Below the pieces are notes generated by a model that searched no databases, had not been told where the DNA came from, and worked only from the letters and a program-made list of their open reading frames with translations. Below are positions 4,717 through 18,643 of a stretch of 28,286 nt of DNA, piece after piece. Source of the stretch: a virus; the IMG/VR virus record IMGVR_UViG_3300018048_000043, positions 1 to 28,286 of that record, one strand, 5' to 3'. Position numbers and translations under genes: made by a program. The first letter of the stretch is position 1, and every line of letters begins with the position of its first letter.

Positions 4717-6778
4717 TACCTGTAAATCCTTGCTCTCCCGGAACCGGAGATTGTCCTACACCAATGTTTCCTCCGCCAGCACCAGAAGTATCTGCCACAT
4801 TAGGTGGCCCTCCATCTGGTTGCGCAGGAGCAGGTGGTGCATTTTGTTGCATGAGTTTTTGTTGGAGTGCAGCTTCTTCGTAGCTGTTAGTAACTTTATC
4901 TGGATCAAGATCCATAGATTTTGCAATCTCCCTAACAATATACGGGAATTTAGCAAATGGCGCAAGTGTTGGATTAGAAGCAACTTGCATGAACTGCATA
5001 AGGCGCTGTGACCGTACTTCATTAGCCATCAACGACTCTGTACCTCTGGCTTTAACATCTAAGTCACCTTTAATATCAGGATCAAAATCAAACTGCATAT
5101 TAAATGAGAACATTGCTTTACCAAGTGGTGAAAGCAAATAATCATCTACATTTTTAATTACTGTTTTAATGCCACCAGCAGCAGCATTCATCAACATTGA
5201 TATACCAGATGCTGTACGCCCTACACCGGCTACACCAGTCTGTCCGTGAGCAAAAGATGGGAAGCCCGTTGACTCATCCGCTAAAACTCGCGCTTTGTCA
5301 AACAACTGCATATTCTCATTAGATACATTCGGGAACTTTGTACCGAAGATAGCTTGACCCGGTGCACCGCCCTGACGACGGAATACTTTACCCGGATACA
5401 CTGAGAGATCTTGACCAGGAACTAAATTTGTCTCATCAATCTCAATGAGCAAGTTACCTGACAAGACTGCATTGTCCACCGCCATGCGCATAAAACCGTT
5501 CATCAGCGTTTGCGTATCGTCCATGTTTTCTGCGATACCTACACCAAAGAATGAGTATGGATTTAACTCATACGGAACTGCATAGTATGGTATGTTGGCG
5601 GGCTTAAATGGGTTAATAACAGCGCGAATAATACGGCCATTACAATACCAAATATTAGCTTGTACTTCGTTGTGTTCACTTACGTCTTCTGGAATTTCAA
5701 CGCCAGCTTGTTCAAGAATATCCGTGTCTACAGACCCCCAATACTCTAGAACTTCAAAACGCTCAATGTCGTGATCCGTTGTGTAGTCTCGTAGATCATC
5801 TTCCCAGTATTTTTTTACGTAACCTTCGCCATGAGCAATGACATCATCAATAACAGTTTTGCGGAAGAATGGGCGACTCTTTAACGCTCTAACCTGTGAA
5901 CGTGACATTTTGTGACGCTCAATAACGTACTGCGCCTCATCCATGCTAGATGCATCTGGGTCAGGGAAAAAGTTCCATACAGAAACGTGGGACGTAGAGG
6001 GAACCGTTTTAAATATCGGAGTGTATTCCCCTTCCTCGTCCCAATTCGGGTATTCTTTGTCTGATGCAAACGGACCTTTCATAATCCCAGTACCAAACAA
6101 AGCCATTTCAAAAGCTGTAGATCGTAACTGCTTAGACGCATACGATTCTTCTAACTGATCCATAATTTTCTTTTCCATGCGCTTTGCAGCAATCATGGAT
6201 GGAGAAAAAGTAATCTGAGTTGCAGTTACTCCTGCGCCTTCTTTAAGACCTTCTACATCCCCTAGTTTTTCGGATAGTGGTCCTAACTTTTCAGATAAAC
6301 TTAAAGCTGTTGCACCCGGAGGTAAATCATTACCATCCCCAGAAAATCCATACAAAGACTCCATTGCTTGATTTTCTGGTGCATTAGGTTGCATATCAAA
6401 ATGAACATTTTCTGCAACACCCTCTGGTAAAGTCGTAGGTTCTACAGAAATTGGGAACTTGTGATTGGCAAACAATACGTCAATGATTTGCCCGTATGCC
6501 GCAAGAGTTTTTGTTTTTGTAACTTTTACAAATACGCGAGATTTCTCTGCTTCTGTAAACTGTACATCAGGACCATATAATCCCCTGTAGTTTCTATAAG
6601 CACGGAGCCATCGCTCTTCATCTTGGCGGCGTGTATCTTCTGCTTTTTGGTATCGCTCCATTACATGACGAACTAGGCTTTGAAGTTCTGTAGGCTCTTC
6701 ATATGAGTCTTCCACATCTGACAGTGTTATCTGTACATCTGCTTCTGTGACATCATAAATATCGTCTTGTTCTTCCAT
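4652..6778 (-). CDS. portal (head-tail connector) protein
   Basis: A 708-aa protein immediately downstream of the large terminase, the standard position and size for a podovirus portal. It would form the dodecameric ring at the capsid vertex through which DNA is packaged. Visible family-like segments are the opening helix with RYQKAEDTRRQDEERWLRAY, the SVWNFFPDPDASSMDEAQYV core stretch, the YWGSVDTDILEQ region, and GIAENMDDTQTLMNGFMRMA with GRTASGISMLMNAAAGGIK in the second half. The last ~80 residues are Pro/Gln/Gly-rich (APPAPAQPDGGPP) and probably disordered. The assignment is firm from context and pattern; no catalytic motif is expected. Confidence 0.9.
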   Translation of the reverse strand: MEEQDDIYDVTEADVQITLSDVEDSYEEPTELQSLVRHVMERYQKAEDTRRQDEERWLRAYRNYRGLYGPDVQFTEAEKSRVFVKVTKTKTLAAYGQIIDVLFANHKFPISVEPTTLPEGVAENVHFDMQPNAPENQAMESLYGFSGDGNDLPPGATALSLSEKLGPLSEKLGDVEGLKEGAGVTATQITFSPSMIAAKRMEKKIMDQLEESYASKQLRSTAFEMALFGTGIMKGPFASDKEYPNWDEEGEYTPIFKTVPSTSHVSVWNFFPDPDASSMDEAQYVIERHKMSRSQVRALKSRPFFRKTVIDDVIAHGEGYVKKYWEDDLRDYTTDHDIERFEVLEYWGSVDTDILEQAGVEIPEDVSEHNEVQANIWYCNGRIIRAVINPFKPANIPYYAVPYELNPYSFFGVGIAENMDDTQTLMNGFMRMAVDNAVLSGNLLIEIDETNLVPGQDLSVYPGKVFRRQGGAPGQAIFGTKFPNVSNENMQLFDKARVLADESTGFPSFAHGQTGVAGVGRTASGISMLMNAAAGGIKTVIKNVDDYLLSPLGKAMFSFNMQFDFDPDIKGDLDVKARGTESLMANEVRSQRLMQFMQVASNPTLAPFAKFPYIVREIAKSMDLDPDKVTNSYEEAALQQKLMQQNAPPAPAQPDGGPPNVADTSGAGGGNIGVGQSPVPGEQGFTGNEQGGQGLPQEGGQQTQTPLQ

Positions 6779-6780
6779 TT

Positions 6781-8367
6781 TTAATATCCAAATTTATTGT
6801 CTGCAGGAGCATATCCCGACGGACGTTGGTGAGCAGGATCATAATCCCAAATAGAGAATCTTGGTCTAGACATAATACCGTAGCGAAGTGCATCATAAAG
6901 ATGATCTTCTGCTTTAGTATCAACGTCTTCTCTTGTTTTTTTATCAAGAGGCAATATAGGTAGTTGTGAAATTATGTTTGTGCAGTTGTTAAAAAATACG
7001 ATTCTTGGTTCTTCTGTAAACTCGTCTACTTGCAATCTTCTATGTATCTCGTTTTTACCTGCAATACGAGAACCTGCAGATCTATCGGACGGCCTCCAGC
7101 GACATCCTTTTTGAATCATCTGTTCAGCAAGTGATGGTCCTGTATCACCACGTTTATGCCAGCAGGAGCTATCAAGAACTCCGTATTTTATATTCCCGTC
7201 TTGGGATTCGAGATCCAATACCATGTCCGCAAGATCAGTCGCCAAGACTTTACTAACATATAGCTCACGATAGACAACAAGCTGTTCGTCAGGTGATACA
7301 GCAAACCAAACAACAGCAGAGTAAGAACCATAGCCATAATCGCAGGCACGAAATTTAACCCAATTCCTAGGAATATCAAAAGGCTCAACAGTATGTACTT
7401 GTCTGTTAAATTCTGGAAAGGCGGCACCTTCTGCAACATCCCAATTACCCTCTAATAACTGCTTCCGCTGATGCTCTGGTAAAGATAACAGCATTGCTTC
7501 ATAATCACCCTGCTCACACAGATATGGATTATCTACAAGCATAGCCGGTATAAATCTACGTTTAAATAGTGCTTCACCCGCCTTGCTGTGATTTGAAGGA
7601 TATACTAAAGTTGTTCCTGTTTCAATATCTGTTGCATCAAAAGCTTTTGTTGGTGGCGAAGGATCAATAAACATTTTCTTAACCCAAGCATGTCCGGGAC
7701 CACCGGGGTTAGTTGTTGCTCGCATATACACCGGTAAATCGGATGCCGTGCTTCGCAAACGAGAACGCATATAGTTCCAAGCAAATGGCGTAGCCCATTG
7801 TGTCAATTCATCAAAACCTACCCAACTAAAAGCAAGACCCTGATAACGCATCACGTCTTCGTCGCGGTCTAGGTAGGAGAACCACAAACGAGCACCAGAT
7901 GGAGCAGTCCATTGCATCTTACGCTCTGACCACTTAATTCCTGGCCAGATCTTTGGATACATCTCCTGAGACTTCCATATAAGCTCTCTAAGCTCCTCTG
8001 TAGTGTGTCGTAATAACAAACCACTAAAAGAGGGATGACCCATGAATCTGAGAGGATCTGCGAGCATTGCGTAGGACTTACCACCACCTGCTGCGCCGCC
8101 GTACAGCACTTCGCGTTCACCTGCTGCCAAGAACTCGGTCTGAGGCCCTGGATTTGGTTTGAAGATAACATTAGCAGTTTCTTCAGGACGAATAGGTTCA
8201 AACTCTTCCTGTTCTTCTAGATTTTCTTTAACTAATATCTTCGGTTGTTCTTTCTTTGGTTGCGCCGAGACGGGTACTTTCGATTTTCTCCGCTTCCGCG
8301 ATTGCCTTTTGGTACCTTCTGGCCCATTCGCGGATAGTTGCAACTCGTCTTTTATTTGATTGCTCAC
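6781..8367 (-). CDS. terL: terminase large subunit
   Basis: A 528-aa DNA-packaging motor and headful nuclease. The ATPase domain shows Walker A GAAGGGKS (residues 91-98), Walker B VGFDEL with D186-E187, and the coupling motif RATTNPGG (216-223). The RNase H-like nuclease shows candidate metal-binding Asp residues at D343 (RACDYGYG), D399 (GVLDSSCW) and D488 or D492 (EDHLYDALRYGI). The first possible start is GTG 8367 and the only other one nearby is TTG 8343. Both lie inside the upstream gene, giving a 116-140-base overlap, and the Shine-Dalgarno is weak, so the N-terminus is uncertain. It docks on the portal encoded next. Confidence 0.95.
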   Translation of the reverse strand: MSNQIKDELQLSANGPEGTKRQSRKRRKSKVPVSAQPKKEQPKILVKENLEEQEEFEPIRPEETANVIFKPNPGPQTEFLAAGEREVLYGGAAGGGKSYAMLADPLRFMGHPSFSGLLLRHTTEELRELIWKSQEMYPKIWPGIKWSERKMQWTAPSGARLWFSYLDRDEDVMRYQGLAFSWVGFDELTQWATPFAWNYMRSRLRSTASDLPVYMRATTNPGGPGHAWVKKMFIDPSPPTKAFDATDIETGTTLVYPSNHSKAGEALFKRRFIPAMLVDNPYLCEQGDYEAMLLSLPEHQRKQLLEGNWDVAEGAAFPEFNRQVHTVEPFDIPRNWVKFRACDYGYGSYSAVVWFAVSPDEQLVVYRELYVSKVLATDLADMVLDLESQDGNIKYGVLDSSCWHKRGDTGPSLAEQMIQKGCRWRPSDRSAGSRIAGKNEIHRRLQVDEFTEEPRIVFFNNCTNIISQLPILPLDKKTREDVDTKAEDHLYDALRYGIMSRPRFSIWDYDPAHQRPSGYAPADNKFGY

Positions 8368-8650
8368 TTTCGACTCGTTTCTTCAGACCTACGTGAGAGA
8401 TGCTTCTTCCTGTTTGCTTAGTCAGCCAATTAGAAACTTCTCTGTAGCTATACTGCTGTAAATATTCCTTTGCCTTTTCCAGTGCTCTAAGCTCTCTTGG
8501 AATAGGTAATAACATATCCGAATCTTCTGGATGTTCTGTGTACCCAAAAGGAATAGTACGAGCAATCCGTGGTATTGCTATAAACTCTTCATCTTTAGTG
8601 ATATTTTCTGGCTGTGGTAAAATCCACTTGCCAGCAGATCGTGCGGACAT
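8228..8650 (-). CDS. HTH protein preceding terL, possible terminase accessory subunit
   Basis: A 140-aa protein. The middle contains a recombinase/terminase-type helix-turn-helix pattern (YSYREVSNWLTKQTGRSISH, about residues 68-87) followed by a very basic helix (VESEQSNKRRVATIREWARR). It lies between the small and large terminase genes and shares up to 140 bases with the terL 5' end. DNA binding during packaging initiation is inferred from the HTH and the location. It may instead be the true small terminase, with the next upstream gene serving another role. Confidence 0.72.
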   Translation of the reverse strand: MSARSAGKWILPQPENITKDEEFIAIPRIARTIPFGYTEHPEDSDMLLPIPRELRALEKAKEYLQQYSYREVSNWLTKQTGRSISHVGLKKRVESEQSNKRRVATIREWARRYQKAIAEAEKIESTRLGATKERTTEDIS

Positions 8651-11470: not shown

Positions 11471-11484
11471 AGTTGTATTTATAG

Positions 11485-11498
11485 TGACAAAAATGTCA
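11485..11498. promoter_or_regulatory. TGACA-AAAA-TGTCA palindrome
   Basis: A perfect inverted repeat of 5-base arms with a 4-base spacer, 14 bases upstream of the first leftward gene. The minus strand reads TTGACA over its inner part. Possible operator; no repressor is encoded in this window. Confidence 0.4.
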
Positions 11499-11655
11499 AG
11501 ACTTTTGTTATGGACGTACAGAATAGTACAAATATAAGTGATTATAGGTAGTACATATAATATGTTTCATTTAAGTTAGCATTTGTAAGTGACTTTTACA
11601 AGAATTTTCTGATTATTTGTCAATGTAACACATTATATGTAAGCCTTCGGCTACA

Positions 11656-11683
11656 GTTATACTGTTTTCAAAAAGTATGTCAA
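11656..11683 (-). promoter_or_regulatory. sigma70-type leftward promoter
   Basis: On the minus strand TTGACA (11683-11678), a 16-base spacer and TATAAC (11661-11656), so -35 matches 6/6 and -10 matches 5/6. The -10 lies inside the palindrome ACAGTTATACTGT (11653-11665). It points toward the virion operon, with a predicted start near 11649. Two more TTGACA copies (11623-11618, 11499-11494) lie downstream with poorer -10 partners. Confidence 0.6.
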
Positions 11684-11704
11684 GCACATTTGATGATCCA
11701 GGGT

Positions 11705-11746
11705 GAATGTGCAGCTGTATGTATATCAATAGGTTACAGCACATTC
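11705..11746. repeat. long inverted repeat, possible operator or hairpin
   Basis: GAATGTGC-AG-CTGTA (11705-11719) is mirrored by TACAGCACATTC (11735-11746). The arms pair over 12 bases with a 2-base bulge, and the AT-rich spacer contains GTATATCAATAGG. It lies just upstream of the leftward promoter candidate. Confidence 0.5.
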
Positions 11747-12136
11747 CAAGAATGTATAAATTTTATGTGTACTGTAAGTGGTTAACACTTTAATTTTCAT
11801 GATCTGTGTATTTCTGTGTATATACGTACTAGGACACCCCCCGTGGCCCTTGCGCCCCCTTTGCCAATCAACATTAAATCACTGTTTTTGCTGGCATTTT
11901 TACATGTTCTCTTTTGATTTCAGACACTTACAAATGTTTGCAAATGGTATGAAATCACTTGCGACACCACAGACCACCGAAAGCATGCGAATTTGTGAGC
12001 ATTGAACGGTGTGAGAGGGTGTGCATCTTTTATACCCACACCCCCTTTACACATGTTCTAAACACCCACCCCCTACTTGCGGTGGTCCATTCGATTTGCT
12101 CCACATGATTTGCTCCGGTTTAGGTGGTCCTTTTGT

Positions 12137-12372
12137 CGTGGTTTCAAAATAATTTTTTCACCCATTTGTAAAACGCTTTTTATCTCGTGATTCAGTGTCG
12201 CATTTTCGATGGTCCAAAACCCCGCTGCCCCGCGCCACACCTGGCTTTCAGGCGATTTTCACACCGTCTTTTTCCAGTGTTTTTTATCGTTGTTTCAGAA
12301 TCGTTTTTTCACCTCTTCCGGATAACGCTTTTTAACCCATGAAAAAAATTATGGAACTATTTCGATTGGTCC
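12137..12372 (+). repeat. two ~80-bp imperfect direct repeats
   Basis: Copy 1 (12137-12215) and copy 2 (12288-12372) share, in order, CGTnGTTTCAnAAT, TTTTTTCACC, AACGCTTTTTA, and end in TTCGATGGTCC or TTCGATTGGTCC. The end motif also appears degenerate at 12090-12102. Copy 2 additionally contains the ECF-like -35 element. Duplication of a promoter or origin segment is likely. Confidence 0.65.
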
Positions 12373-12382
12373 TTGTCTAAAC
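12350..12382 (+). promoter_or_regulatory. ECF-sigma-like promoter upstream of methyltransferase
   Basis: TATGGAACT (12350-12358), 15 bases, TGTCTAAAC (12374-12382). GGAACT with GTCTAA about 16 bases apart matches the general form of RpoE/ECF promoters. The predicted transcript would start roughly 50 bases before the methyltransferase ATG. An identical bipartite element with the same spacing is at 14485-14517. Confidence 0.5.
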
Positions 12383-12438
12383 TTTCAACACCGCATGAAA
12401 TCGGTGTCACATTTTCCAAACATTAAGAGGATATGGAA

Positions 12439-13434
12439 ATGCAAAACACAAATAGCAAAACTAACACTTTAAACGTAATCAGCCTTTTCGATGGTCACGG
12501 GTGCGGATGGCAAGCACTCAAAAACAATGGTTTCAATTTGGGTACATGTTGGGGTGTTGAAATTGACAAATACCCTCGCGCCATTTGTCAAAAGAACCAT
12601 CCCGAAGTGATGCATCACGACGACGTTCGCACGTTCTCTTACGCATCCCACGGGTGCGGTCAATCTTTCGATCTGGTTATGGGTGGTTCACCCTGCCAAG
12701 ATCTTTCGGTGGCATCGCCAAATCGTAAAGGCTTGGACGGTGCGCGTTCTGGATTGTTTTGGGAGTTTGTCCGCATCGTTGAGGAATTCCAACCAACGTA
12801 CTTTTTCCTCGAAAACGTCGTGATGAAACAAGATCAGGCGGACCAAATCACTAAAGCACTAGGTGTTGAACCAATTACAATCAACTCCAAAAAGTTTAGC
12901 GCACAAGCACGGACGCGCATGTATTGGACCAACATCCCATTGGACGCATTGCCAGAAAACGATTCACCAATCGTTTTGCAAGATATCTTGGAGGATGGAT
13001 TTGCCACGGATCGCGCTAAGGCTTTATGTATTGACGCGAACTATTTCAAGGGCGGAAATTTGAAGCAATATTTCGAGAAGCACCGTCGCCAATTGGTATT
13101 TAGTGCCGATGGTTTATGCCATGCGGGTGATGCTGATTTGCGAGGTCTGGAGGTGATCCGTCGCGTTTATCATCCTGCAGGAAAAGCACCTACCTTAACC
13201 ACGATGCAAGGCGGACACCGTGAACCAAAAGTGATCACGTCCGAAACAACATGGCGCAAGCTTACACCCATGGAGTGCTTGCGCTTGTCGGGTCTTCCGG
13301 ATGATTATGCGGACGGTGTCACGGTGGAAGACCATCACGGCAAACAACGTCCAATTAGTAATTCACGAGTCTACAAGGCTTGCGGTAATGGTTGGGAGGT
13401 CAACACAATTACTTGGCTATTCCGGAATATCTAG
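12439..13434 (+). CDS. C5-cytosine DNA methyltransferase
   Basis: A 331-aa enzyme transferring a methyl group from S-adenosylmethionine to cytosine C5. Motif I is VISLFDGHGCGW (13-24), the catalytic Pro-Cys loop is GGSPCQDLS (82-90, C86), motif VI is FLENVV (123-128) and motif VIII is QARTRMYW (156-163). A short target-recognition region follows (~190-250), then RKLTPMECLRLSGLPDDY (273-290) and motif X YKACGNGWEV (312-321). An ATG at 12433 is only 2 bases after AAGAGG; the ATG at 12439 is 8 bases after it and is preferred. No restriction enzyme gene lies nearby, so protection of phage DNA from host restriction is the likely role. Confidence 0.95.
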   Translation: MQNTNSKTNTLNVISLFDGHGCGWQALKNNGFNLGTCWGVEIDKYPRAICQKNHPEVMHHDDVRTFSYASHGCGQSFDLVMGGSPCQDLSVASPNRKGLDGARSGLFWEFVRIVEEFQPTYFFLENVVMKQDQADQITKALGVEPITINSKKFSAQARTRMYWTNIPLDALPENDSPIVLQDILEDGFATDRAKALCIDANYFKGGNLKQYFEKHRRQLVFSADGLCHAGDADLRGLEVIRRVYHPAGKAPTLTTMQGGHREPKVITSETTWRKLTPMECLRLSGLPDDYADGVTVEDHHGKQRPISNSRVYKACGNGWEVNTITWLFRNI

Positions 13435-13444
13435 TGTTCTGCTT

Positions 13445-13468
13445 ATGCCCATCCTCTGGGGTGGGCAT
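13445..13468 (+). terminator. strong hairpin between methyltransferase and next gene
   Basis: ATGCCCATCC pairs with GGGTGGGCAT (after a TCTG loop) over 10 bp including one G-U. No T-run follows, so it may be an mRNA processing or stability element or a weak terminator, not a classic intrinsic terminator. Confidence 0.5.
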
Positions 13469-13518
13469 TATCGGAAACACTCCGAACCACGACAAACAAA
13501 CCAAAGAGGAAACTAGTC

Positions 13519-14262
13519 ATGGCACAATCTAAAAAACCAAAAGGATTCGTATTTTATCGCGGACCATCACAATTGGACCCCTTGCGCGAGGTGGTGGGCA
13601 TCATTACGTTTTCATCATCAAACGATAAAACGGGTGACATGGCGACGGTGTGGTATCTACTCGAAGCGATTTCACCCGTACAAGCACAAAAGAACGGCAC
13701 CGACGAAGCGATATGCGGAAAATGCCCGCACCGGAAAGGATCTTGCTACGTTCTCACGTTCCAAGCACCGCTAAACATTTGGAAAAACTACCACGGTGGC
13801 AAGTATCCCACCGCGACGGTGGAAGAGGTGGCGCAATATGTGTCGCTTCACAAGTTAGACGTGCGATTTGGTGGATACGGTGACCCCGCAAGTATCCCAA
13901 CAGATTATACGCGAATCATCGCGGAATCAGCCGACACCATCACTGGTTACACCCACCAATGGATGCACAAAAGCTTCGATCCTGAATTACTCAACTATTG
14001 CATGGCATCCGTGGATAACGAAAAGCAAACCATCCACGTGGCAAAAATGCATCCCACAATCAAACCACGGTACTACCGTGTCAAACGCGAGGACGCGCCA
14101 CTATTAGTGGGTGAAATAGAATGCCCACACTATACGACGAAGATTCAGTGTCGTGCTTGTGGTTTGTGCGATGGTGCGAGGCGCGAGGGTGCTTCAATTG
14201 TCGTCAACATCCATGGCGCAAAATGGAAACAAGACAAATTTGATTTGATCGCAAAAGCTTAA
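13519..14262 (+). CDS. Cys-cluster phage protein of unknown function
   Basis: A 247-aa protein preceded by an AGAGGAAA Shine-Dalgarno. Two Cys clusters are clear: C66-x2-C69-x6-C76-Y and C202-x8-C211-x2-C214-x2-C217. Between them are VRFGGYGDPASIP (115-127), ITGYTHQW (141-148) and NYCMASVDNEK (159-169). I recognise this pattern from a family spread across phages and plasmids with no known function. The Cys and Gly motifs loosely recall phage Gp37/Gp68-type (DUF5131) proteins, suggesting a metal- or iron-sulfur-containing barrel; this is speculative. It shares a transcript with the methyltransferase and ends at a strong terminator. Confidence 0.8.
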   Translation: MAQSKKPKGFVFYRGPSQLDPLREVVGIITFSSSNDKTGDMATVWYLLEAISPVQAQKNGTDEAICGKCPHRKGSCYVLTFQAPLNIWKNYHGGKYPTATVEEVAQYVSLHKLDVRFGGYGDPASIPTDYTRIIAESADTITGYTHQWMHKSFDPELLNYCMASVDNEKQTIHVAKMHPTIKPRYYRVKREDAPLLVGEIECPHYTTKIQCRACGLCDGARREGASIVVNIHGAKWKQDKFDLIAKA

Positions 14263-14280
14263 ACGCGAACCAATCCAAAC

Positions 14281-14310
14281 GGGGTCACTTTTGATTGACC
14301 CCATTTTTTT
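14281..14310 (+). terminator. intrinsic terminator of methyltransferase cassette
   Basis: GGGGTCA (14281-14287) pairs perfectly with TGACCCC (14296-14302) around an 8-base loop and is followed by A and seven Ts. It closes the two-gene cassette 18 bases after its last stop codon. Confidence 0.9.
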
Positions 14311-14546
14311 CTGCTGTTGCTGATCGCTGCGGTACTATCACGTTTGCAGTCAATTTTTGTCTGCACTAGGTACTATCAGCACGGGTCCAGTCAGAATTTG
14401 CAATGGTCACAAACACGGGCCAGGTCTAGTCGCGCCTGCACAAAACCTGGACACATAAAATTTTTTTAATTTTTTTTATTTTTTTATGGAACTTTCAAAC
14501 ACGGGTGCTGTCTAAACCAGTACAAACAAACAAAAAGGAACTGAAC
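14311..14546. other. repeat-bearing intergenic region with long A/T tract, origin or promoter candidate
   Basis: Non-coding. GGTACTATCA occurs at 14331-14340 and 14369-14378, each followed by AGTCA and TTTG. CACGGG occurs at 14380, 14414 and 14500. CCAGGT and ACCTGG form inverted arms (14420-14449). A 30-base tract of almost only T and A spans 14458-14487 and abuts the ECF-like promoter. Iteron-like repeats beside an AT-rich tract are typical of replication origins, but this is inference. Confidence 0.5.
14485..14517 (+). promoter_or_regulatory. ECF-sigma-like promoter of main rightward operon
   Basis: TATGGAACT (14485-14493), 15 bases, TGTCTAAAC (14509-14517), identical in sequence and spacing to the element at 12350-12382. 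The predicted start is about 26 bases before the ATG at 14547. Confidence 0.55.
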
Positions 14547-14777
14547 ATGAACGAGCAAAAGTGGGTGGAGCAGATCTCCAAATTCTTAGTCGGCAAGACT
14601 ATTAAAACCGTGCGGTATTTAACTGCAGAAGAAGCGGACGATTGGTATGAGCGTCCCATCGCAATCGTTTTTGACGACGGTTCTTTCATTGTGCCAATGG
14701 CAGATGATGAAGGTAATAACGGTGGCGCAATGTATACGTCTGAAGAAAGTCTTCCGGTCATTCCGGTAATGCAATAA
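14547..14777 (+). CDS. small acidic protein, first gene of rightward operon
   Basis: A 76-aa protein starting MNEQKWVEQISKFLVGKTIK, with Shine-Dalgarno AAGGAA about 7 bases before the ATG. The frame is open from an ATG at 14505, but that start falls in the promoter element. An alpha-beta pattern ends in an acidic sheet-like region (AIVFDDGSFIVPMADDEGNN). Family not recognised. As the first gene of the operon it may be expressed early. Confidence 0.72.
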   Translation: MNEQKWVEQISKFLVGKTIKTVRYLTAEEADDWYERPIAIVFDDGSFIVPMADDEGNNGGAMYTSEESLPVIPVMQ

Positions 14778-14787
14778 GGAAACAATC

Positions 14788-15219
14788 ATGAAAGATATCA
14801 AACCGTTTAAAGCGTACTCACCAGAGTACGATGCTGTCATGAACACCGAACACGAGGTTGTTCAGAATGTTTACGCTGGCAGTATTTTTGAAGAGTTCAC
14901 GTATTCCGTGAAGATCTCCAACGACATTTCGATACTCAAAATGATTGAGTGCTACGACGGTGATCAACCCAGTTATGAACGGGACGGTCAGTTTGAAGCA
15001 CTGTGCGAGAACTTAGGTATTCACGCAATGGATTACCGTTCTATCGCTGATTACCCTAGACACGGTAACACGTTGCGATTCGCTTTTAGAACTTTCGAGG
15101 ACGCACGGAACTTTTTGGATTCCGTGAAGTCTATATTCTTAGACGATGGCAAACGGTATGAGGCTCAAGCACGAGCGTTCTACAATGCCCACCCAGAAGC
15201 AACACGAGGTGATTTCTAA
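14788..15219 (+). CDS. phage protein of unknown function
   Basis: A 143-aa protein after an AAGGAA Shine-Dalgarno. It has an alpha-beta pattern (FTYSVKISNDISILKMIECY, HGNTLRFAFRTFEDARNFLD) reminiscent of ferredoxin-like folds, but no known motif. It overlaps the next gene start by one base (TAATG), so the genes are coupled. Confidence 0.72.
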   Translation: MKDIKPFKAYSPEYDAVMNTEHEVVQNVYAGSIFEEFTYSVKISNDISILKMIECYDGDQPSYERDGQFEALCENLGIHAMDYRSIADYPRHGNTLRFAFRTFEDARNFLDSVKSIFLDDGKRYEAQARAFYNAHPEATRGDF

Positions 15220-17545: not shown

Positions 17546-18342
17546 AAAATGTATACACATACGTTTCGTCATTGGATTTAAGCAATGGCGAGACACACAG
17601 AGGAACATGCCCTACATGTGGAGGTAAAAACACGTTCACAGTCACTAAAAACGATGGCAGTTTGCTTTGGAATTGTTACAAAGCGGGTTGCCCCACGTCA
17701 GGTGGCAAGAATGAGTTCATGACGGCAGATGAAGTCATTGAATCATTGCAAAAAGACAATGAGCCTGAGAACTACGAAGAGGCTCTGTGTACGATCTTTG
17801 AAAAAGAACCGTACATGGTACCTGTTGACGCAAGTAAAGCTTACCTGCGTTCTTTCCTGCAGAAATGGAGCATAGAACCCAGTGATGTGTGGCACGACGT
17901 GCGTCAAGATCGTATTGTATTTCCAGTGCTGTCACTTGCAGGCGATCTGATGGACGCAGTTGGCAGATCAGTCATCAATAAGCATCCGAAGTGGCTTAGA
18001 TACAATGCATCACCCGTCCCTTACTCACATGGGTTGGGTAGAACTGCTGTTGTAGTCGAAGATGCAATCAGCGCGTATACAATAGGGCAGCTTTACCAGT
18101 ACAACGCTACTGGAGTTGCATTGCTGGGTACTCAATTGACTAATTTTCACAAATGGTACATCGCAAACTTTTTTGATAGCGCAATCATTGCTTTAGATCC
18201 GGATGCTATAGACAAAACTGTTAAAATCACAAAGGAATTGCGAGGTTACATGGACAATGTTCTCGCATTAGTCTTAAATGACGATCTCAAATACAAAAAT
18301 GAAGACGATTTAGATCGGTTAGAGGAGATGTTAGATGCATAG
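17542..18342 (+). CDS. DNA primase (T7 gp4 primase-like)
   Basis: A 266-aa protein. The N-terminal zinc-binding domain has C23, C26, C45 and C50 (TCPTCGG, WNCYKAGC). The TOPRIM core has VVVEDAISA (E173) and IIALDPDA (D219, D221), the metal-binding acidic residues. It would make RNA primers for the phage replisome. It corresponds to the primase half of T7 gp4 as a separate protein; the helicase is encoded four genes downstream. The ATG overlaps the integrase stop (ATGA). Confidence 0.9.
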   Translation: MKNVYTYVSSLDLSNGETHRGTCPTCGGKNTFTVTKNDGSLLWNCYKAGCPTSGGKNEFMTADEVIESLQKDNEPENYEEALCTIFEKEPYMVPVDASKAYLRSFLQKWSIEPSDVWHDVRQDRIVFPVLSLAGDLMDAVGRSVINKHPKWLRYNASPVPYSHGLGRTAVVVEDAISAYTIGQLYQYNATGVALLGTQLTNFHKWYIANFFDSAIIALDPDAIDKTVKITKELRGYMDNVLALVLNDDLKYKNEDDLDRLEEMLDA

Positions 18343-18643
18343 GCGAGGCGGTTATAATGTTCCTTGGACTGAGGAAGAGATTGAGACAACAATCAGAATG
18401 TACAAAGAGAGTAAGACCAACTATGAAATTGGTTGTGCTATTGGTAAGACAGGGGATGCTGTTAAAACTAAGCTAGGTAAATTGCGTAAGCAGTTTAACT
18501 TAGCCCCTAGGAGTCAGTCTCTTCTCAAGAAAGGAAATAGGCGTAGACCACCGAAGGGGATGACATCATTTGATCGTGACTGGCAAGGCTCTGTGCCATT
18601 CGGACACTGGATGATCACTAAGCCGTGGAAGAAAGTGTCATGA
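18335..18643 (+). CDS. Myb/SANT-like HTH protein with Trp-rich C-terminus
   Basis: 102 aa. Residues 10-52 (PWTEEEIETTIRMYKESKTN and YEIGCAIGKTGDAVKTKLGK) form a tri-helical Myb/SANT or GcrA-like DNA-binding domain. The tail FDRDWQGSVPFGHWMITKPW is conserved in phage proteins I have seen but has no assigned role. GAGGAG precedes the ATG. A transcription or replication regulator is inferred from the HTH. Confidence 0.75.
   Translation: MHRRGGYNVPWTEEEIETTIRMYKESKTNYEIGCAIGKTGDAVKTKLGKLRKQFNLAPRSQSLLKKGNRRRPPKGMTSFDRDWQGSVPFGHWMITKPWKKVS

Follow-up and report, generated by a model that had tools for sequence, protein, structure and literature searches.

Organisation of the early region

The DNA analysed here (hereafter the window) is an IMG/VR record of 28,286 bases from a marine virus of bacteria, an HMO-2011-type phage. 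Its family A DNA polymerase, which shares 63% identity with the Puniceispirillum phage HMO-2011 enzyme over the entire length, carries an inserted DnaJ-like segment (DnaJ_CXXCXGXG, E 2.7e-5, below the Pfam cut-off), and the genome follows the HMO-2011-type gene order, with leftward structural genes and rightward replication genes in divergent halves. The early and late halves are separated by a long non-coding gap (11471-12432), possibly an origin or attachment site. Positions 11471-12349 of this gap align with 4998-5917 of a divergent relative (contig L010) through many conserved blocks, and the gap also holds a repeat (12131-12162 and 12282-12313, 84% identical, 151 bases apart). No tRNA was found in the window, which therefore gives no attachment-site hint to the host.

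Two rightward transcription units lie beyond the gap. The first opens with a C5-cytosine DNA methyltransferase (12433-13434, + strand, Pfam PF00145, E 2.5e-32), whose start is more likely at 12439, this ATG fitting an AAGAGG ribosome site better than the ATG at 12433; it continues with a phrog_2554 gene (13519-14262, +) and ends in an intrinsic terminator (14281-14312, +) formed by a stem at 14281-14302 and a subsequent T run. The first gene of the second unit (14547-14777, +) encodes 76 amino acids, and the replication genes after it are likewise rightward; in order, this unit comprises a putative promoter, a short leader, several small early genes, integrase, primase, helicase, polymerase and ribonucleotide reductase. 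Among the small proteins of the early operon, one (18335-18643) matches PHROG 323 (transcriptional regulator, D5-like) and is a possible phage regulator. Another contig (L104), whose polymerase part is identical to that of the window, overlaps the right end of the window; in it the rightward early operon stops at an nrdB-like gene just past the window, where a leftward gene starts, so that nearly the whole early operon could be inspected.

A bipartite element precedes both early units

The element TATGGAACT-N15-TGTCTAAAC occurs twice on the + strand with no mismatch, at 12350-12382 (P1) and 14485-14517 (P2), where 0.02 sites are expected from shuffled sequence and no shuffle contained two; no further site was found at up to three mismatches on either strand of the window. 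The initial annotation had described two identical elements with the same spacing and no other copy, and it was correct on each point. P1 contains a putative -35 GGAACTA (12353-12359) and -10 GTCTAA (12375-12380), P2 a putative -35 GGAACTT (14488-14494) and the same -10 (14510-14515). P1 ends 50 nt before the ATG at 12433 and 56 nt before that at 12439, and P2 29 nt before the ATG at 14547, roughly the 57 and 30 bases first estimated. As the terminator separates the two units, the second needs a promoter of its own, which P2 would provide. Downstream of P1, a leader hairpin (12388-12407, +) lies close to where the mRNA is expected to begin; L010 has the same hairpin, and the z scores for the two leaders were -1.8 and -2.7. 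Among near-identical phage contigs, P1 is unchanged in two (L004 and L005) and P2 in one (L006). Compared as DNA against phage isolates, the region gave no match, and an Rfam search around P1 and P2 recognised no RNA family. We regard P1 and P2 as very probably promoters.

The only divergent relative found with both sites was L010, whose methyltransferase is 89% identical. There P1 (5918-5950) keeps GAACT in 5 of 5 positions and TTGTCTAAAC in 10 of 10, against 9 of 14 matching bases in the spacer; the leader hairpin is retained with compensating changes, and at the terminator position a hairpin is present with altered sequence. At P2, before a first gene that is 80% identical, GGAACTTT is retained, with GTCCAA as the -10 and a downstream shift that lengthens the spacer by one base. 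L010 also carries a small gene that is absent from the window (8360-8560), preceded by a perfect GGAACTTTTC-N10-TTGTCTAA, and contains two sites of N15 spacing and no more than one mismatch where 0.01 are expected.

Resemblance to RpoE promoters

Scored against GGAACTT-N15-GTCTAA, the form of gammaproteobacterial RpoE (sigma-E) promoters, P1 matches 12 of 13 positions and P2 all 13. The promoter of the E. coli rpoE gene itself, read from the genome as a yardstick, is GGAACTT-N15-CTCTAA and matches 12 of 13, so that P1 and P2 fit the RpoE class as well as this promoter does. Sigma-E motifs given in the literature are GGAACTTTT and GTCAAA (PMC1804206). The class as applied here has a -35 GGAACTT and a -10 of the GTCTAA/TCAAA type spaced 15-16 bases apart, a form shared by P1 and P2. 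Promoters of the RpoE class (sigma-E, ECF02), such as those of E. coli rpoE and Salmonella rybB and micA, likewise combine a -35 GGAACTT with a GTCTAA-like -10 over N15, and the gammaproteobacterial ones share with P1 and P2 the short distance to the gene; unlike them, P1 and P2 are phage-borne, stand before the first early genes and are predicted from sequence. At up to one mismatch the consensus has three sites in the window against 0.02 expected; the third (15107-15134) is in coding sequence, within a gene, and probably arose by chance.

To see how widely the motif occurs, IMG/VR was scanned with GAACTTTTC-N-TTGTCTAA, a pattern taken from the L010 copies, at spacers of 9, 10, 11, 12, 13 and 14 bases, which gave 10, 52, 1, 9, 5 and 9 matches; when similar contexts were joined into families, these became 3, 31, 1, 4, 5 and 5. 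In this pattern N10 corresponds exactly to the RpoE spacing and to that of P1 and P2, and it forms a clear peak (31 families vs. 1-5 at the other spacers). Coding sequence does not explain the peak, as N13 has the same reading phase yet is not enriched. Of the 31 N10 families, 12 have no open frame of at least 100 codons across the candidate site; some of the others may not be working promoters. Proteins downstream of the other viral-contig sites had either no relatives among isolates or only remote ones. Five apparently unrelated IMG/VR viral contigs (L216, L237, L188, L201 and L210) each carry at least two RpoE-like sites.

Sigma-70 promoters before the early genes of sister phages

In sister HMO-2011-type phages with a syntenic genome, sigma-70 promoters occupy the place of the early sites: TTGACA-N18-TATTAT precedes the first early gene in L258 and L259, TTGACT-N17-TTTAAT that in L253 and L254; near-perfect sigma-70 sites are numerous in HTVC033P. 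These promoters, of the TTGACA-N17/18-TATTAT type, contrast with the GGAACTT-N15-GTCTAA of the window. No RpoE-like site with at most two mismatches was found in the parts read of HMO-2011, CRP-1, CRP-2, CRP-207, CRP-345, CRP-603 and HTVC033P, all isolates from alphaproteobacterial hosts. No sigma-70 site (TTGACA-N16-18-TATAAT, up to two mismatches) was found in the early regions of the window and of L010, where 1.2-1.6 are expected by chance, an absence that is only suggestive and mildly informative.

Several relatives have repeats of their own in this region. On the minus strand of L254 (1-2300), GTAGGATTTTCCTAC palindromes precede early genes and many GCGCAAaTnTTGCG-like palindromes lie in the gap; in L090 (5210-7350), GCGTAAAAATTTTTTACACAT palindromes, unlike those of L254, are repeated before successive early genes; and the first early gene of L259 (4872-5622, minus) is packed with short inverted repeats, e.g. 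CCACCTAAAGGTGG and CTTCCCCAAAGGGGAAAG.

Host

Cultured relatives infect Alphaproteobacteria, the known hosts of the family. In 289 genomes of the class of an alphaproteobacterial MAG the motif had four exact sites, below the reversed-pattern control, and motif counts in these 289 genomes together with 249 of the phylum revealed no host. A few motif matches in bacterial genomes stand before Hsp20-like genes. A scan of a genome collection with the polymerase was of no use for host assignment, its matches being phage contigs binned into unrelated MAGs. The lineage has either left the usual hosts of the family, or infects a host with an atypical ECF factor, or relies on a factor of the phage.

Which sigma factor reads P1 and P2

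The ECF/RpoE-like form named in the initial annotation is well supported by the consensus, the exact spacing and the conservation in L010, and further by the position of P2 after a terminator, the sigma-70 promoters of the sister phages and the spacing preference in viral contigs; P1 and P2 are most likely of the RpoE/ECF type. The same annotation had proposed a stress-linked host sigma factor, and this is still the best explanation, although the motif is not enriched in the genomes sampled from the Alphaproteobacteria, the known hosts of the family. We consider it probable that P1 and P2 are early promoters of an HMO-2011-type phage with an RpoE-type (sigma-E, ECF02) -35 and -10, read by the host and replacing sigma-70 promoters; that an RpoE-type host holoenzyme is the one reading them is likewise probable. 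The RNA polymerase of the host, with an RpoE-like ECF sigma factor bound, would start transcription a few bases after GTCTAA, methyltransferase mRNA arising from P1 and replication mRNA from P2, and where its relatives have sigma-70 early promoters the lineage would have taken up sigma-E ones in exchange.

Another host sigma factor, for example an alphaproteobacterial one belonging to a different ECF group, would fit the known hosts of the family and the lack of motif enrichment in the sampled class. EcfG, the general-stress sigma factor of Alphaproteobacteria, recognises a -35 GGAAC, as found here, and a CGTT-type -10; however, this -10 is lacking from both P1 and P2, and TTGTCTAA at the observed spacing better fits RpoE, which makes such a factor rather unlikely.

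A sigma factor encoded by the phage has precedents, as phiEco32, SU10 and 7-11 encode ECF-like factors and likewise place phage genes behind bipartite ECF-style promoters, that of 7-11 recognising GTAAtg-(16)-aCTA. If P1 and P2 were read in the manner of phiEco32 and 7-11, the gene would lie in the unread part of the structural half or be too divergent for recognition; the restriction of the motif to this lineage within the family would agree with this. In those three phages, however, the phage sigma gene is needed for middle or late promoters, early promoters using sigma-70, whereas here the sites stand before the first early genes, so the factor must be present at infection, and no sigma gene was recognised. 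Sigma70_r4_2 had no match in the window, Sigma70_r2 had none in L010, L004, L006, HMO-2011 and six long relatives, and Pfam scans, which covered many though not all of the early proteins, recognised no sigma domain. A Sigma70_r2 match in a further record (L230) failed confirmation as a sigma gene. The consensus is moreover identical to that of bacterial RpoE, and viral contigs with no relation to this phage show the same spacing again. The phage-encoded regulator that the initial annotation offered as an alternative is thereby weakened, with no sigma domain recognised in the early genes, HMO-2011 or the six long relatives and with the structural half read in part; we judge a phage sigma factor unlikely. 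A host factor is the simplest reading.

It is very unlikely that the element is a binding site for a phage repressor, activator or replication protein and not itself a promoter. Early genes of sister phages are indeed preceded by palindromes specific to each lineage, and other conserved blocks and a repeat lie in the gap ahead of P1, but the element is not palindromic, is always directed at the downstream gene and combines promoter spacing with a leader of plausible form, and these genes have no other good promoter in front of them. A chance repeat, to which the unrelated spacer sequences of P1 and P2 might point, can be set aside given the number of sites expected at random and the conservation in L010.

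Implications of probable RpoE-type early promoters

Phages usually start on the housekeeping sigma factor of the host and later switch with factors of their own. If P1 and P2 are read by the host's RpoE-type factor, control of the early genes by an envelope-stress sigma factor would link infection to the condition of the host envelope, an envelope that the entering phage itself disturbs. We tentatively suggest, as a possibility somewhat short of even, that the lineage traded sigma-70 for envelope-stress sigma early promoters so that infection or ambient stress gates its first genes, and that the spacing excess in viral contigs reflects many unrelated phages doing likewise. Our literature search, of incomplete coverage, returned cases of phage-encoded ECF factors and no report of early phage promoters under host sigma-E or another envelope-stress sigma factor. 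The motif can also be used at the sequence level to search for such phages and to narrow down their hosts, and the contrast with the sigma-70 promoters at the same place in sister phages makes the switch testable with promoter fusions.

The putative late promoter

The leftward late operon has a promoter-like site of sigma-70 form (11472-11499, - strand, TTGACA-N16-TACAAC), and the late operon would use a promoter of this type. The same form with the 16-base spacing is present in nearly all relatives checked, including HMO-2011. In the family-conserved version, TTGACA-N16-TATAAC(TATG), the first late gene has its start codon directly next to the -10 or overlapping it, pointing to either a leaderless mRNA or a later start.
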